From Malus domestica (taxonomy: Eukaryota > Streptophyta > Magnoliopsida > Rosales > Rosaceae): a stretch of DNA of 64,000 bases. The notes beneath the pieces are model-generated. The model was not told where the DNA came from. It did not search any database and saw only the letters and a list, made by a program, of their open reading frames with translations. The translations under genes and the position numbers were made by a program. The stretch covers positions 29,746,501-29,810,500 of the forward strand of contig NC_091664.1 of NCBI RefSeq assembly GCF_042453785.1, read 5' to 3'. Below, one piece after another: positions 1 through 26,229 of the stretch. Position 1 is the first letter of the stretch, and each line of letters opens with the position of its first letter.

Positions 1-530
1 TTCTTCCTTCCTCCTTCATCTTCTTCCTTCTTCTTCCTTCTCCTCCCCAGATTCGGAAGAAGAAGAAGAAGAAGAAAAAAAAAATTCCCTAGATTTGGAG
101 GAAGAAGAAGAAGAAGGAGAAGGAAGAAGAAGGAAGAAGGAGAAAAAGGGGAAGGAAGAAGGAGGAAGGAAGAACAAGAAGGTCTTCTTCTTCTTCTTCT
201 TCTTCTTCTTCTTCTTCTTCTTCTTCTTCCTTCGACTGCAACTTTTTTTTTCTTCCTCCTTCTTCTCCTTCTTCCTTCCTCCTTCTTCTTCTTCCTTCCT
301 CCTTCATCTTCTTCCTTCTTCTTCCTTCTCCTCCCCAGATTCGGAAGAAGAAGAAGAAGAAGAAAAAAAAAATTCCCTAGATTTGGAGGAAGAAGAAGAA
401 GAAGGAGAAGGAAGAAGAAGGAAGAAGGAGAAAAAGGGGAAGGAAGAAGGAGGAAGGAAGAACAAGAAGGAGGAAGAAAAAAAAATTGCAGTCGGAAGAA
501 GTAGAAGAAGAAGAAAAAAAAACGTGGACG
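1..530. repeat. GAA/TTC low-complexity tract with a 288-bp tandem duplication
   Basis: Purine-only and pyrimidine-only blocks (GAA/GGA and TTC/TCC) alternate, so the blocks can pair with each other as hairpins. The block starting near position 13 recurs at 301, an offset of 288 bp, including the same CCCCAGATTCGG and TTCCCTAGATTTGG islands. CGACTGCAA (232-240) and TTGCAGTCG (485-493) form an inverted pair around the second unit. The open frames here are repeat translations, not genes. Confidence 0.85.
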
Positions 531-721
531 ACACGTGGCGCCCAGTCATTGTTCACATGGGTACCACGTCACAATTAACGGCAGATTTAACAGTTTGACT
601 AATGGATGTATGAGACTGTCCCAAAATTTACATTTTAGGTATGAATCTGAGACAAAAAAAAACTTGATGTACTAAATGTTGAAAACCACGAAACATGAGG
701 ATAGTAAACAATCTTTTACCC
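531..721. mobile_element. right end of an unclassified non-autonomous element (left end outside window)
   Basis: After the GAA tract comes a unique block with ACGTGGCGCC and ACCACGTCA motifs, ending at CTTTTACCCT. Intron sequence homologous to the second EGF-like gene resumes at about 733 (GTTGGTTTCTTTCTTC; compare about 6887). The block before that is absent from the paralogue, so it is an insertion in intron 1. Family is unknown; a Mutator-like or other terminal-inverted-repeat element is a guess. Confidence 0.5.
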
Positions 722-775
722 TATTATATATATAAGTTGGTTTCTTTCTTCTTACACATCTTCTTCTTGTTACAG

Positions 776-2125
776 CTCAAATATGTGATCAAGTTGAGTG
801 TGGAAAGGGAACATGCAAATTTGATATAAACGAACCATTAGGTTTCACGTGCGAGTGCGACCCTAACTGGAAGCGAACGCGTGATGGTGACGATGATTTG
901 AAGTTTCTCCCCTGTGTCATCCCCAACTGTAAGCTCTAATTCTTGTTGGATTTTTGGATCGTCGGGCCTGCCCCACTCTAACGATACCGATATTGTCCTC
1001 GCCTTTAACACCTGCCCAATTCGTCAGGTGTGGAGTTTTACCACAAAAGGTCTCGGTACTAGTTAGAGTGGAGTAATCATATTTAAACCCCTTGGTTTCT
1101 TTTCCCACCACTGATTTGGGACTTTAACAATTCTCTCCCTCTCGAATAAAACTTGAGGAGCAAGATTTTGTTTTGCAGGATGTCACTTAGGATCGATTCT
1201 AATTTTTCGTGTTTCGCAGGCACACTGAACTACAACTGCCAGCCCGCTCCACCTCCAGTTCCTCAGAAAGAAGTCCCTCGCAATTTGTCTGCCTTTGAAC
1301 GTAATTACCACTAAGCCAGCTCAATTATCTCATCCATTAATTCACATAATTAAATTAATCGCTTGGTTATTATTAATTTGTTACTAATAACTCAAAATTT
1401 TGGGGTTTAAACAGCTTGTTACTGGGCTTACTGCGGAGAAGGTAACTGCGTAAGGAACAGTACATACCATTACACCCCCATCTGTGAATGCAACTCCGGC
1501 GCCACTAATCTTCTCAATGTCACATTATTCCCCTGCTACAATCAATGTATGAACTCTAACTAATTACTTGTCTTAATTCTGGTTTAAAACATAATTAACA
1601 AACTTTCGAGAAGCTGGAGACAGTGACAGGAACTCTAATTTTTTCGTAATCTTTCAGGCACGCTTCAGAGTGACTGTGCGAGCCTTGGAATCAAGGTTGC
1701 AAACTCAAATTCCTCCACTAGCCCTGGGAGCACCACTAACTCTGGGAGTGACAATAGTCAAGGTGAGACTGTAATTTGTTTGTTCTTTTTGGGTTATCAA
1801 ATTTTAGACTTGAGATTAAGGCAAACTAATTAAAAGCCCGTTCGATGACCATGTTATTTTTAGATTAATTTCTAATTAACAATAAGGATCAAGACTTGGT
1901 CAAGGGGCTTGAGGTTTCAAAAGTCGACATTTCTTCGTAATTAACTATGAAAATAAAACCTAAAATCTATAACTCAGCCATGTTGAGCACTCAAATAACA
2001 CAATATGCTGATTTTTTTTTCTTCTCCTTTTTTCCCCTCGTTTTCCAGCTACGTCGTTTTTGCCCGGAAAGTTCCAGTTGATGGCTGTAGCGATGGTGTC
2101 TGTGGGTCTGATTCTGAGGAAGTAG
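776..2125 (+). CDS. EGF-like small secreted protein, copy 1 (5'-partial)
   Basis: Exons at 776-928, 1220-1300, 1415-1546, 1658-1762 and 2049-2125 (stop TAG) have GT-AG junctions in the same phases as the intact copy at 6655-8061. The encoded part (about 182 aa) is open and has two C-x4-C-x4-C EGF-like modules (ICDQVECGKGTC and CYWAYCGEGNC), a proline-rich spacer (APPPVP), a Ser/Thr/Asn-rich stalk about 10 residues longer than in copy 2, and a C-terminal hydrophobic tail (MAVAMVSVGLIL) suited to a GPI-anchor signal or membrane tail. Exon 1 with the signal peptide is not found: a transposon end occupies intron 1 up to about 721, so exon 1 is either left of the window or lost. Intron 2 holds a small LTR-type insertion (944-1129). 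Molecular function is unknown; an extracellular, wall or membrane location is inferred. Confidence 0.75.
944..1129 (-). mobile_element. short solo LTR / TRIM-like element in intron 2 of EGF-like copy 1
   Basis: A 186-bp unit starts TGTTGGAT and ends TTTAACA, flanked by the 5-bp duplication ATTCT (939-943 and 1130-1134). The paralogous intron at 7079-7183 lacks it, giving an empty site. It resembles, in opposite orientation, the 44610-44803 element (shared CCCACTCTAAC and CACACTTGACGGATTG-like blocks). It has no coding capacity. It is a fossil LTR of a TRIM-like family. Confidence 0.75.
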
Positions 2126-2997
2126 GGTGCAAGAAACCGCCACGGCCGAGATTGTGCATTACATTTGTTCTTGTTTGATCATACTATAGTTTCACTCACT
2201 TCAGATTCATTTTTTTGTTGTAAAATTACTTTGATGTTTCCCCAGTTCATCAGTTTGTATACAGTCAGTTTGTGTAAATAGATCGACACACGGTCATAGC
2301 CCGATGACCCATATATTGCACTTGTATACAGATTCTTATGAACCATCAATATGTTGACATCTTCCTTTTGTTTTGGCTTAAACCTTTGGAAAACGCCTTC
2401 CTCGGTTTCTTTTTTTGGTCCTGAAAAGTAAATTTCATTAATCTAAAATAAGGTTACGGGCCAACACCGTGGAAGGCAAAATAATCCAAGTATATTGGAG
2501 GAAAATAGATAAATAAACGCTTAGCCCAATTAAATAAACAAAAACGAAAACCCAAATCCCTAATATCTAACTGCAAAAAACAGCGTCCGCCGCTGTCATC
2601 GCCACAAAAGTCTTGCCAGCAGCTGCCTAAGCAGCAATAGTAGAGAAAATGACCGAGTGGTGAAATCAACCAAGACAACACCACACAACCAAACCTGCAA
2701 CCAAAAGCACACCACATCCAGATTTCTTCACCAAATACGCAGAACCAAGAGATAGTCACCGGATTCAAATCTTATTCACTAATCTTTGCAAATATATACA
2801 AACACAGTAACACATGGGTATAAGGTGAGGCTAAGGATATGTAAAATACCCTACTTTAGTCATAGCCACAGAACACTTGACCTTGAGGGAATTGTAGCAT
2901 GCTGGTTGGGGGAGAGAAAGTGAGGGAGAAAAATAAATTTGACAACCATATCCGGCCTGGAGTCCTCAAATCAAAACAAAGGACGGGGTGGGATGGA
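2126..2997. other. 3' flank of EGF-like copy 1 and unassigned intergenic DNA
   Basis: 2126 to about 2340 is similar to the 3' flank of copy 2 (8062 to about 8290), including GATCATACT and GACACACGGTCATAGCC, so the tandem duplication covers the 3' UTR. From about 2440 to 2997 I see only unassigned AC-rich sequence with no convincing gene. Confidence 0.6.
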
Positions 2998-5409: not shown

Positions 5410-5417
5410 CCCCTCTT

Positions 5418-6306
5418 CAATGGCGGATCCACAGTGGGGTCAATGGGGTCACACGACTCCTTGGAAGCCATGGAAACAACCTTAGAGACCCCTTGGAGCT
5501 GCTGGTGTGACCCCTTGGCTGCACACCAAGTGTTTGACGAAAGGTCTGAAAGAACTCCATGGCGAAATTGTACGGATTTGTATCCACCATGAAGGAGGGA
5601 AGGTCTCGGCTTGTGAAAGATAATGGCAAACCTGGTAATTCTATTGGACATGGAAGGACATTGTTCGTACCAGAACTAGTATTATCCCGGATGAGATCTT
5701 TGTACCCGTTAAAGTAATAGTAGTAGATGTCGAAAACCGTGGCTGGCTGAATCCAAAGCAGCACGCGTGGGAGGTGAAGTTCATGTGCCATCCCTGCCGA
5801 CCAAGGGAGAAGTAATGAGTAGACTAGGCAAGTGTAAGGGTGACCCTCGTTTGCACTTGCGACTACAAGGTCGGTGATGGCTTGTGCTCCGTGGTGCCGC
5901 AACTCCGACATGTAGTGGTCGATGTTGTCACCGGGCTTAAACCTGTCATCGTACCCATCAGAGAAGGGCGCATAAGTCAATCCATCTGGAATTGAGCCAT
6001 TGCCTATGTGATGATGAGCTAAGAGACTGGTAACGAAGGTGACATGCGCACCTGTAGTGTTGATAAGGCGCTTGGCGTATTGGAGGGAAGGGTTGATGTG
6101 GCCTTGAGTCGGATATGTGACAAGTAGAAAGCGGTGTTGCACCATGGCAGCGCATGTGATTGCGGAGGTGCGTGGAGTTGTTGGAAGTAGAATAAGTAGA
6201 CTTGATGAAATGACGATATGCATGTCGTTTCTGTTAAAAAAAATTTGCGCGCTGCGCGCGCTATCCTTATTGACCCCCCAAACATTATTTCCTGGATCCG
6301 CCACTG
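5418..6306. mobile_element. hAT-like transposon carrying a captured UGT gene fragment
   Basis: An 889-bp unit has inverted ends CAATGGCGGATCCA (left) and, read inward from the right, CAGTGGCGGATCCA. It is flanked by a perfect 8-bp duplication CCCCTCTT (5410-5417 and 6307-6314). An 8-bp target duplication with CAGTGGCGGA-type ends suggests the hAT superfamily. Inside are no transposase remains; most of the interior (5528-6145, minus) is the 5' half of a UDP-glycosyltransferase gene, so this is a transduplicating (Pack-type) element. A GCGCGC palindrome lies near the right end (6248-6260). Confidence 0.75.
5528..6145 (-). pseudogene. UDP-glycosyltransferase N-terminal fragment (UGT75-like), captured
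   Basis: From ATG at 6145 the frame encodes about 206 residues of a family-1 plant glycosyltransferase: MVQHRFLLVTYPTQGHINP with the acceptor-side catalytic His at residue 16, VYSLLLPW, and the LLWIQPATVFDIYYYYFNGY stretch typical of UGT75 members (anthocyanin 5-O- and crocetin-type glucosyltransferases). Homology stops after EFFQTFRQTL, where the frame runs into the transposon end. The whole C-terminal nucleotide-sugar domain with the PSPG box is missing (full length is about 460-480 aa), so it cannot be a working enzyme. The captured frame has stayed open, which suggests a fairly recent capture or chance. No promoter is evident. Confidence 0.8.
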
Positions 6307-6523
6307 CCCCTCTTCACGTTTGTTTTTAAAAAAAATTATGGAACCTTCTTCCAGTTGACAAACTCAGGCCGCCATTGGAAGCTTCTCTTCCACTTTGATA
6401 CCTTCACAAATTTTCAGTCTTAATCTCATATCAATTATGCTCATAAGCGTGTTGATTTAGTAAATAATTAATTCTTTTATTTTCTTTGTTTGGGTGCTAA
6501 GAAATCTTGAAACCCCTTCAAAC

Positions 6524-6538
6524 TTTATATATATATAT
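6524..6538 (+). promoter_or_regulatory. TATA box of EGF-like copy 2
   Basis: TTATATATATATATAG lies about 115-130 bp upstream of the ATG at 6655 and just upstream of a CT-repeat leader, the usual arrangement of a plant core promoter with a pyrimidine-rich 5' UTR. Confidence 0.55.
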
Positions 6539-6591
6539 AGAGAGAGCCTAACATCATCAGAAACAACACCCCCTTCACATCTTCACATAAA

Positions 6592-6593
<2 letters not shown>

Positions 6594-6637
<44 letters not shown>
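6594..6637. repeat. (CT)n microsatellite in the 5' leader of EGF-like copy 2
   Basis: An almost uninterrupted CT dinucleotide tract ends 18 bp before the start codon, probably in the 5' UTR. Confidence 0.85.
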
Positions 6638-6639
<2 letters not shown>

Positions 6640-6654
6640 AAAAAACTGATACAA

Positions 6655-8061
6655 ATGGCTTTCTCTAACTCCATGGCCTTTTTAGCTGTGCTTCTGATAG
6701 CGCTGCCCATCGCTGCCTTCGCCTGGGACTTGCCGAATAACTCTACTATTGGCGGTAAGCACTTCATTTTCTCTCCGAAACATTTTTTTTTTCAAACTTT
6801 GTCTGAAACTCACATAGGCTCGACGAACAAAGAGAAGATGTTTATGAACGACATATAATCCTTTTTATTATTATTATTCGTATCAGTTGGTTTCTTTCTT
6901 CTTACACATCTTCTTGTTGTTGCAGCTCACATATGTGACCGAATTGAGTGTGGAAAGGGAACGTGCAAAGCCGATTTAACCAAACCATTAGGTTACACAT
7001 GTGAGTGTGACGCTAACTGGAAGCGAACGCGTGACGGTGACGATGATCTGCAGTTTCTCCCCTGTGTCATCCCCAACTGTAAGCTCAAATCCTCTCCCTC
7101 TCAAATAAAATGTTCAGAAGCGAGATTCCGTTTTGCAGGATGTCACTTATGATCGATCAATTCTAATTTTCACGTTTTTGCAGGCTCACTGAACACCAAC
7201 TGCCAGCCAGCTCCACCTCCAGTTCCTCAGAATGATGTTCCTAACGATATATCCGCCTTTGATCGTAATTACCACTAAACCAGCTCGATCATCTCATCCG
7301 TTAATCCACAATTAAATTAATCACTCGGTTCTTTTTACTAATAACATGTATTTTCGGGTGTTAAACAGCTTGTTACTATGCTTACTGCGGAGAAGGTAAA
7401 TGCGTAAGGAACACCACATACCATTACACACCCTTCTGTGAATGCAAATCCAGCGCCACTAATCTTCTCAACGTCAAGGCTTTTCCCTGCTACTATCAAT
7501 GTAAGAACACTAAATAAACTTGTTTTAATCCTGGTTTAGAACATACTTACAAACTTTCAAGAAGCTGGAGAAAGTACTGGGAGCTCTAATCTTTTCGTAA
7601 TCTTTCAGGCGCGCTTCAGGCTGACTGCGAGAGCCTCGGAATTAAGGTTGCAGACTCAAATTCCTCCACTGACAATAGTGAAGGTGAGATTGTTTGTTCT
7701 TCGTTTTGGGTTATCGAATTTTAAACTTAATGTGAAGGCAAACTAATTAAAAGCTTGTACGATAACCACGTCGTTTTTAGATTAATTTTCTAATTAACTT
7801 GCTTGACAAGAAGGATTAAGACTTTGTCAAGGGGCTTGAGGTTTCAAAAGTTCATTTCTACGCAATTGACTTTGAAAATATAGCTTAATTTATTTCTACA
7901 ACTCAGCCATGTTGAGCACACAAATGACGCAATATGTTGACTTTTTTTTTTTTTTTTTTTTTTTTTGCTCCTCTCGTTTTCCAGCTACGTCGTTTTTGCC
8001 CGGAAAGTTCCAGTTGTTGGCCGTGGTGATGCTGTCTGTGGGTCTGATTCTGAGGAAGTAG
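6655..8061 (+). CDS. EGF-like small secreted, probably GPI-anchored protein, copy 2
   Basis: Six exons: 6655-6754, 6926-7078, 7184-7264, 7369-7500, 7609-7683 and 7985-8061, all with GT-AG introns, total 618 bp, 205 aa. Residues 1 to about 23 form a signal peptide (MAFLAVLLIALPIAAFA core). Two EGF-like modules follow (CDRIECGKGTC and CYYAYCGEGKC, each with a downstream CxC), 16 cysteines in all, separated by a proline-rich linker. A Ser-rich stalk and the C-terminal hydrophobic LLAVVMLSVGLIL plus a short RK tail suggest GPI anchoring or a tail anchor. The start is the first ATG after the TATA box and CT leader. It is the intact member of a tandem pair. Role unknown; an apoplastic or cell-surface protein is inferred. 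The start, frame and splice sites are all clean. Confidence 0.85.
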
Positions 8062-9521
8062 GGTGCAAGAAAACGCCACGGTCGAGATTCTGCATTACAT
8101 TTGTTCTTGTTTGATCATACTTTAGTTTCACTCACTTCAGATTCATTTTTTTGTTGTAACATTGCTTTGATGTATCCCCAGTTCATCAGTTTGTATAAAG
8201 TCTGTTTACGTAAATAAATCGACACACGGTCATAGCCCGATGACTCTCATATACGGCACTTGTATACAGATTTTTACGAGTACAATAATTTTATGAACCA
8301 TCTATCATTGACAGAGCAGATTTTCAACAAGTATTGTATGGCTTTCTAAGCTACACAGACACAGACACAGACACAGACACGCACACAGACACGCACACAC
8401 ACTAACATACACCGGGTAGATATAGATTTCTCGACGTCATAAGCAAATCAACTTTCCGCAACAAAGGAAAAGATTTTACAAGTCGATAAAATCCACCCTC
8501 GTGAAACAATTAGAACTGATGCAATCAGCATAAGAAATGAAGACAAAGAGGTCATACACTAATAAAAAAATTCATTAGAACACTTCCAAAACAATCGAAA
8601 AGCTTTTACACGTTGATCAAACCTGCCGTTACCAGACAATTAGAAGGACAGATGCCATCAACATAAATAGAACACAACCAAAAACATGATCAAGTTATAA
8701 ATACGCCACTCAGGTTGCAACCGAAATCATATCGCAGGTTCTGTATGATTTAGGCTTCAAGTTAACTGGTAACACGTAGTAATCCAAGCATTGAGTACAG
8801 GTGTACCATCGAGCGTTTTACTCCATAACTTTTTAAGATGCCATTGCAAAGAGAGAGCCACATGCATCATACATCACACAAGAGAGCGATTAACTACTAA
8901 CATAAGTGGTTCACCGATCGATACTCAGTTCATTTTCGAGTAACATTGATCACAAAAAGCTACCAAGTTTAAATATCAGTTCAAAAGAAATGTTGTTGAA
9001 ATCTTACCTATTCTGGAAGACAAACTGAAACGCGGGAATCACTTGACCCTCGAAAGCCTCAAGAAAAGCTTGGGTTACAGTTGATGGAGGCAGTTCTCAG
9101 TATACTCTCCTAAAATTATACAGAAACAGGACTGCCAATAACTCAAAATATAATAGCAGAAGTGTGAGCTAAGAATCTAAGACAGTAACGAGGTCCATTC
9201 GGGTGACTGAAAATCGCAGAAGCACGAAGGTAATTCATTTCACATTATTTCACAATTCACAATTCCATCATTCTTTAGTATCATTAGTATACCACTGGTC
9301 GAAACCGCAATGCTCAACAAACAATAAGACTATCGAATGCAGAATTTTCGACAAATTTCCCATTTCGCCAATCTAAAATTACACCAAAGCAGCTAAATTT
9401 CACCAGTAAATACTGAACAACAAGCAGCAAGTACCAAAACCCCCCAAAAATATGGAAAAAAACAGAGTACTAATGGAGATTCCAAATACTCACCACCACC
9501 GGAGAACCCGAAAAAAGCCAA
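8062..9521. other. 3' flanks between convergent EGF-like copy 2 and RPI
   Basis: 8062 to about 8290 is the EGF-like 3' UTR region shared with copy 1. About 8356-8402 is a (CACAGA/CACACG)n microsatellite. The rest is the 3' side of the isomerase gene. GGTGAGTATT (minus strand, about 9488-9497) lies just past the RPI stop and resembles a splice donor, so a spliced 3' UTR is possible. No other gene seen. Confidence 0.5.
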
Positions 9522-24564: not shown

Positions 24565-26229
24565 CCAAGGATTTAAATATCGGTAATATTGGTAGTCCGA
24601 AAACACGGAAATATCGATGGAAATATCGGTATAATATCGATATCAATAAAAATTACATGGAAACCACGGAAATTGTAAGAAAAACTTGGAAATTTTTATT
24701 GAAACTTTGCAGGATGTTTATTTAGTCAATTATCTATTAATTTATCACAAAAAATTGGAAGGAAATGCATTGCATGATGGATTTAACATTATCAAGTTGA
24801 TTATATAGCGAGCTGGCAAACATTGTGAGTGTAGAAAATATGTAGTAATTAATGAAAGAAGTTTAAACACACCATAATCATTTATATATAATGAATTAGT
24901 ACAATATTTTACACTTTATACATTGCATGGAAAGATACATGAATGACTTAGTACCACATAGAGTTCCTATGAGGTTCAAAATTTTCACCTTGGTGTTTTT
25001 TAAAGTATAGAAATTTATCTTAGATAATAAATATTAGCTTGCAAACCTTGCAGACATCTTAATGACCATATAAGGCTGAATATGTAATCACAAACACATC
25101 TGTAACGAGTTGGATAAGGCCCAGGTACGTGGTTGACAAAGGAAGGGTTCAAATATAACCTGCTTGCTTAGTTAAAAAAAACAAAATATTATCTAAATAA
25201 TTTATAATTTATATAATATATATATATATATATATAATATATCCTAAACTTTTAAAAATATAAATGGATGGCCTTCATTATTAAAAGTTAAAACCATGCA
25301 CCTCTTTCACGTCACTTGTCTAAAAGTTTTAGACTAAAACCATCAAAGCCAAAGGTTTTGTTTTTTTTAAGTCTCGCGTCCCACCACCAAGGTTTTCTCT
25401 CTCTCTCTCTCTCCCCGCACCGTCCCCTCCTCCTCCCTCATCTTCACAGATCTCTGTTCCTCTCTCTATCCCCGCATCACAGATCTATGTTCCTCTCTCT
25501 CTCCCCGCATCGTCTCCTCCTCCTCCCTCATCTTCACAGATCTCTGTTCCTCTCTCTCTCCCCGCACCGTCTCCTCCTCCTCCCTCATCTTCACAGATCT
25601 CCCCCTTCTCGATCCTTCTCTCTTCTTCTCTGAGGCCCTCGATCCTTCTCTCTTCTTCTATGAGGCCTGACCTCTCTTCTCCCCCTTCTCCATTCGACCC
25701 ACACACACACAGATCTCCCCCTTCTCCCACTATCTCGATCCTTCGCCCACTCTCTCGATCCTTCGCTGCCGTTGATCGTGGCTCTGGCGAAGTCGGACTT
25801 GGCTCAGTCGTCTCTGGTGGTGCGCCGCTGAGCAAGGAGTTGGCCCAGTCATCGATTTTTCAGGTGAGATTCCATTGAAACCCTAAGTCCTAAACCGACA
25901 TCACATATGTTGAATCGTTGATGCATGCGTGAAATTTGAAGCTTATATGTGAAATTGAAGTTAAAAATCGTGTTTTTGCAAGGTTTTTGGGACGAAATGG
26001 GCTCGTGAATAGGCACACCATCTCTGGCGTTCTTCTCCGGCGTTCGATATCGGAGGCCGATTGCACCGTTCAACAAAATATCTCGATATTTCCAAAATAT
26101 CGCGATATTATCGATAATATCGCGATATTTAGACGAAAACTACACGGATACCTATTTAAATATCTATTCCCCGAAAAATCGATATTATCGGCGATATTTC
26201 GCCGATAATATCGATATTTAAATCCATGG
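24565..26229. mobile_element. large non-autonomous TIR element with AATATCG-rich ends and gene-like cargo
   Basis: 1665 bp with ends CCAAGGATTTAAATATCG and, read inward from the right, CCATGGATTTAAATATCG, flanked by TCCTAA (24559-24564 and 26230-26235). The right end holds a near-perfect palindrome of about 44 bp built from CGATAT/GCCGATAAT (about 26175-26220). The interior at 25316-25863 is GC-richer, CT-rich and gene-like, ending in TTTTTCAG|GTGAGA at 25864, which looks like an exon-intron junction. This suggests a captured 5' gene piece, but I do not recognise the gene. Confidence 0.6.
25399..25600. repeat. CT-rich minisatellite inside the TIR element
   Basis: Three to four imperfect units of CTCTCTCCCCGCAC-CGTCTCCTCC-TCATCTTCACAGATCT of about 35-65 bp. 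The long open frames across it on both strands are repeat translations. Confidence 0.75.

Follow-up and report, generated by a model that had tools for sequence, protein, structure and literature searches.

An 889-bp apple transposon, very probably a Pack-type hAT element, that carries the 5′ part of a UDP-glycosyltransferase gene

We analysed a 64,000-bp stretch of the apple genome, hereafter the window (C4:29746501-29810500). It contains an 889-bp unit, ~340 bp downstream of which an ATG at 6655 opens a reading frame. The original prediction of a unit of this length with matched 14-bp ends and a perfect 8-bp target duplication was borne out: the ends match at 13/14 positions and the duplication is exact. 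The features, in window positions, are as follows.

5410-5417, no strand: left target-site duplication, CCCCTCTT, identical to 6307-6314
5418-6306, no strand: very probable non-autonomous hAT-type element with host cargo, 889 bp; a full-length copy on C3 matches at 98.5% over 889 bp and has its own duplication
5418-5431, plus strand: left terminal inverted repeat, CAATGGCGGATCCA, complementary to 6293-6306 at 13/14
5418-5560, plus strand: left transposon end, 143 bp, common to family copies and transposase-coding relatives
5417-6223, minus strand: 268-aa open frame, running from 6223 to 5417 through an extension made of right transposon end and leader, UDP-glycosyltransferase (UGT) residues 1-195 and the left transposon end
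5561-6199, minus strand: captured host segment, a 54-bp 5′ leader followed by UGT codons 1-195, with 89.4-95.1% identity to the four intact UGT genes of C4:2.05-2.14 Mb
5561-6145, minus strand: captured coding part, codons 1-195, without the C-terminal half that includes the HCGWNS (PSPG) motif (HCGWNS is donor residue 369)
6200-6306, plus strand: right transposon end, 107 bp, present in many copies; the coding elements read to their ends (n = 2) share its last 18 bp only
6293-6306, minus strand: right terminal inverted repeat, pairing with 5418-5431
6307-6314, no strand: right target-site duplication, CCCCTCTT; element-free counterparts at L065 ~987-1010 and L066 ~660-700

We scanned the window for 14-bp terminal inverted repeats (TIRs; at most one mismatch) with an exact 8-bp duplication at a spacing of 200-2000 bp. 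The scan returned two units, 5418-6306 and 24566-26228, compared to none in each of 20 first-order Markov resamples. The second unit (1663 bp) has ends CAAGGATTTAAATA matching at 13/14 and an exact 8-bp duplication, GTCCTAAC. With 40 of 3214 candidates scored it had at least 163 matches in the genome; it is therefore a high-copy repeat, and probably a non-autonomous transposon.

The region beside the 889-bp insertion (window 1-2341 and 6315-9315) is duplicated, with paralogous stretches at C4:29745205-29748841 and a counterpart on C12, at 29.95 Mb. Two sister sites, L065 (a tandem paralogue on C4) and L066 (a duplicate on C12), aligned across the insertion point with the element absent, at 83.5% over 946 columns and 73% over 290 columns, respectively, of the joined window flanks. 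The letters at the insertion point were ACACACCCCCCTTTCACG in L065 and CAACCACCCTCTTCACG in L066. A clean empty site had been anticipated in relatives. These two sister sites of the same genome, taken as stand-ins for relatives, do lack the element and hold the target once, but the target letters have drifted and are not identical to CCCCTCTT and its flank.

To locate the source of the cargo, we searched the genome (651 Mb, 19 contigs) with 5547-6199 alone and obtained 10 matches (10/10 candidates scored). Six of them fall in a UGT cluster at C4:2.05-2.165 Mb; the other four are the window itself, one complete copy on C3 and two parts of a single C17 copy. Within the cluster, four intact UGT genes stand in tandem (L041-L044), with single frames of 474, 474, 481 and 474 aa, and a further stretch (L045) holds two separated UGT pieces. 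The candidate donors are single-exon, so intron retention says nothing on the capture. Similarity to the UGT genes spans 5547-6199 by search and 5561-6199 by alignment; it stops inside the element, and no UGT homology was observed outside 5418-6306.

The cargo occupies 639 of the 889 bp (72%) and holds 195 of the 474-481 donor codons (~41%). This agrees with the earlier claim that about 70% of the interior is an uninterrupted host frame from the start codon. The predicted limit at codon ~206 was not upheld, as alignment places it at codon 195 (window 5561). When the L043 protein was compared with the window by tblastn, the single match (6145-5528) did run to residue 206, at window 5528, because a few transposon-end bases beyond 5561 resemble the gene. 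The catalytic His is present in the cargo, in the GHINPS motif at donor residue 16. The closest solved structure bearing a subfamily name was UGT74F2, in a search confined to solved structures; the subfamily label first given, UGT75, was not confirmed there. Pfam returned no match for the 268-aa frame at 0.001, and in both full donor proteins scanned (L041 and L043) the UDPGT match sits in the C-terminal half. Since that half is missing, no UGT activity is expected from the cargo.

We compared the cargo with each intact gene. Aligned identity was 95.1% to L043, 93.9% to L041, 93.6% to L042 and 89.4% to L044. Over the 3′ 330 columns there were 4 differences from L043, 23 from L041 and 27 from L042. 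Over the first 309 compared positions (segments summed) there were 27, 16 and 14, respectively. The cargo is nearest L043 in its 3′ part and nearer L041 and L042 in its first part, which indicates that no extant gene is the exact donor; none of the four matches throughout, and L043 is the closest. This pattern would be explained if gene conversion had altered the array once the capture had taken place, or if the donor has since been lost.

We also considered whether small RNA from the cargo silences the parent UGT array and the copies persist for that reason. The window cargo shares 8 to 11 exact runs of at least 21 nt with each of the four intact donors (longest, 119 nt). On the other side, capture of only 54 bp of leader means that little or no donor promoter came along, and only three cargo copies were found. 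We regard this explanation as improbable. Most likely the cargo has no role and is a passenger, with silencing cross-talk to the UGT array possible. For annotation, the 268-aa UGT-like frame at this position should be read as transposon cargo.

A search with the unit and its flanks gave at least 58 matches (40 of 387 candidates scored). Copies with and without UGT cargo were both found, each kind with its own duplications, as the original prediction had proposed to look for. The cargo copies lie at three sites with the duplications CCCCTCTT (window), ACAGTACC (C3) and CCTACAAG (C17). The C3 copy is complete, at 889 bp and 98.5% identity. In the C17 copy (L010) an insertion of ~5.9 kb interrupts the element and contains a stop-free frame of 1575 residues. 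This insertion is a retrotransposon inside the UGT cargo at L010 1648-7522, presumably of the copia type as judged by eye, and its 224-nt long terminal repeats differ at 2 positions. A 10-bp deletion in the leader is common to the window and C3 copies and absent from the C17 copy and the four donors. The shared deletion suggests that the window and C3 copies are probably sisters.

The window and C3 cargoes differ at 5 of 639 positions. Within the 195 codons there were 4 non-synonymous and 1 synonymous differences, and over the 168 codons of the larger C17 piece the counts were 4 and 1 (window-C17) and 3 and 2 (C3-C17), all too low to speak for or against selection. These data bear on the idea that selection maintains the 268-aa frame as a truncated protein. 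Both copies that are not interrupted keep the frame open, at 268 aa in C3 as in the window, but they are too alike for this to inform. The window-C3 comparison gives no sign of constraint, tiny as its numbers are, and the C17 copy is split by the retrotransposon. We regard a selected protein as very improbable.

We next turn to the element class. hAT elements make 8-bp target-site duplications, and the duplication at the window is exact. Short TIRs of the CAGTGGCGG type are characteristic of the hAT superfamily; the window TIRs are of this type and pair at 13/14. The left TIR reads CAGTGGCGGATCCA in 13/20 two-ended family copies, and the left end aligns over 62-160 bp at 82-96% in family copies. 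Related elements with the same left end carry transposase-like frames. The unit at 5418-6306 encodes no transposase; its interior is the UGT piece. Between its ends is host coding DNA whose donor array lies elsewhere in the genome (C4:2.05-2.165 Mb). It occurs with this cargo at three sites with three different duplications, and two sister sites are free of it. These data support the core of the original prediction, a hAT-like element with the 5′ part of a UGT gene. We conclude that 5418-6306 is very probably a Pack-type hAT element that moved with its UGT cargo.

The left end is common to 12 further loci (L029-L040). Mutually similar, transposase-like frames were seen by eye in 12/12 of them, with an N-terminal piece only in L032, which closed as a 1441-bp copy. 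For 11/12, the stretch first fetched held no acceptable right end (eight false candidates with 0-2/8 duplication letters, and three loci without a candidate). Two coding elements were followed to their ends. The one on C14 measures 3633 bp, is flanked by the duplication CCTACATC, contains a stop-free frame of 799 residues and matches the window left end at 94% over 140 bp. The one on C2 was followed to a right end with a 7/8 duplication. Compared to the window, the two elements match over the left 129-140 bp at 94% and, on the right, over the last 18 bp only.

Residues 1-480 of the C14 frame (L035, the only left-end locus given this test) matched Pfam DUF4371 at 7.9e-71, and the next 318 residues (L067) had no Pfam match at 0.001. 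DUF4371 is grouped with hAT transposases. The C-terminal frame of the C2 element (L068) scored 19.5 bits for the hAT dimerisation region, below the Pfam cut-off of 21.4. Among three right-end copies (L069-L071) we did not find a coding element with the family right end: L069 and L070 are short and complete, and L071 has no left end within 2.4 kb and a long frame that is retrotransposon-like by eye.

We then assessed the wider family. Twenty-five copies were completed at both ends (the window, L009-L028, L032, L069, L070 and L073), L010 being counted with its retrotransposon; the count leaves out 10 further loci, nine of L029-L040 plus L071. Duplications of at least 7/8 bp flank 25/25 of these copies and are exact in 21/25, in a set selected for having two ends, with the duplication helping to place the boundary in L032, L070 and L073 and scoring 8/8 or 7/8 in L013 depending on the boundary chosen. 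Recognisable host pieces were present in 12/25 completed copies. UGT cargo was found in three (window, L009 and L010).

RPL38 sequence of at least 65 bp was found in six copies, by Pfam in L013, L015 and L023 and by blastn to the L015 piece in L014, L069 and L070. From the same left-hand start, the remnants measure at least 130 bp (L015 and L023, lower bounds given the 130-nt query), 84 bp (L013) and 65 bp (L014 and L069), and shorter ones measure 40 bp (L016 and L017) and 19 bp (L011 and L018). The L070 remnant (75 bp) starts from the other end. The graded lengths (≥130, 84, 65, 40 and 19 bp) suggest serial captures.

Two of the RPL38-bearing copies hold two captured genes per element, the 65-bp RPL38 remnant adjoining beta-glucosidase (GH1) pieces. 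GH1 was identified by Pfam in L014 and, in L069, as a near-identical copy of the L014 stretch. With 40 of 60 candidates scored, the GH1 piece had at least four full-length matches including itself; on C14, positions 50-608 of its 655 are matched at 97%. PPR sequence was found in two copies, L026 (Pfam) and L073 (similarity). We found one further copy of the PPR piece, at 95%, and a match at 93% within an 804-residue stop-free PPR-like frame on C17.

The last of the 12 copies, L012, holds an unnamed host piece that matches C2 at 96% and has four copies including itself. The parts on either side of this piece match different loci, on C3, C5 and C11, and the interior perhaps reflects two captures, one nested in the other. 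A piece at C3:28342701-28342904, ~0.3 kb from the nearest family element (spacing inferred), was considered as a pre-capture form of the L012 element and dropped, as piece L076 and the spacing did not support it.

For the origin of the UGT cargo, the events would run as follows. The source of the piece would be the C4 UGT array, either one of its present genes or one that has since changed or disappeared, and the copy would have entered a break within an existing element through ectopic gap filling. The loaded element would then have moved by transposase supplied in trans from related DUF4371-type hAT elements with the same left end; the differing right end of the two coding elements, apart from 18 bp, and the sub-threshold dimerisation match speak against such a supply. 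At the junctions, GGC (left) and AG (right) are common to donor and family sequence, as seen by eye without a null model. Such microhomology of 2-3 bp suits ectopic gap filling and can be chance. Breakpoints of animal Pack-TIRs have a median microhomology of 2 bp, according to the consulted part of PMC8277862. We favour gap filling as the capture route, with moderate confidence. In its available text, the same paper assigns gap filling to single-copy Pack-TIRs; for those in multiple copies, a class that our three-copy UGT case resembles, it suggests a different route linked to replication.

The alternative model has two related elements inserting in tandem, one on each side of the UGT piece; after loss of the inner ends the whole would have moved as a single unit. 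Gisby and Catoni favour this model, which has been published for Pack-TYPE elements including hAT (PMC8903248, as far as its accessible sections go). A fusion of two elements is expected to give what we observed, a left end that is the coding elements' left end and a right end that is not. Against this, five 10-kb donor stretches contained no convincing element end (best E 0.009, 23 A-rich bases). The same left and right end types also hold RPL38, PPR and other pieces, and their pairing thus seems older than the UGT capture; the graded RPL38 remnants, moreover, fit interior replacement. We consider tandem insertion rather unlikely, and gap filling remains our preferred route.

Taken further, the family could be a serial gene shuffler. 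Its ends would be unlike in origin (the left from a DUF4371-type hAT, the right from elsewhere), and its interior would have been overwritten repeatedly by ectopic repair. Later cargoes, GH1 for instance, would then adjoin left remnants of an earlier RPL38 capture, and the UGT copies would keep the state of the array before gene conversion. We offer this as a tentative proposal, a little less probable than its opposite.

Among the open-licence papers retrieved, no title or abstract opening reported the present apple case, a scope that does not imply non-publication. The main text of PMC8903248, in the part consulted, does not mention Malus, apple or Rosaceae; the part consulted of a 2026 review (PMC13317346) does not mention hAT or apple; and the word 'capture' is absent from the portion consulted of a Rosaceae transposable element paper (PMC11197308). 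The statement that Pack-hAT elements are less often described was fair, though published cases exist, as the accessible parts of PMC8903248, PMC3260210 and PMC2528002 attest. Our data add a well-resolved hAT gene capture in a plant outside grasses and grapevine. Candidate donors, element-free sister sites, near-alike copies and a multi-capture family make gap filling and tandem-insertion fusion testable against each other in one genome.

We compared the apple element with known systems as the available portions of the respective papers describe them. Maize and rice Pack-hAT elements carry captured host coding DNA (PMC8903248). Like the apple element, these Pack-TYPE elements are non-autonomous, with TIRs, an 8-bp duplication and captured coding DNA, and some form multi-copy clusters. 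The apple case differs in its plant host; in addition, a single family here shows several cargo types, together with candidate donors and element-free sister sites. Maize Ds2 and Ds-l4 (PMC3260210) are likewise short hAT elements with gene-derived filler DNA copied from DNA (introns are kept in some Ds), but have 11-bp Ac/Ds ends, whereas the apple element has a relative of the DUF4371 type and its UGT cargo occurs in three copies. Grapevine Hatvine-6 (PMC2528002) is similarly a hAT family with common ends and variable, partly genic interiors; its copies share transposase coding sequence, and none was found in the cargo copies here. Animal Pack-TIRs such as frog hAT-N8_XT (PMC8277862) also place a host piece at three places with distinct duplications and show breakpoint microhomology, in an animal host and with a UTR cargo. 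Gene capture by plant hATs is already published, and the apple UGT element is a further example of a known event.
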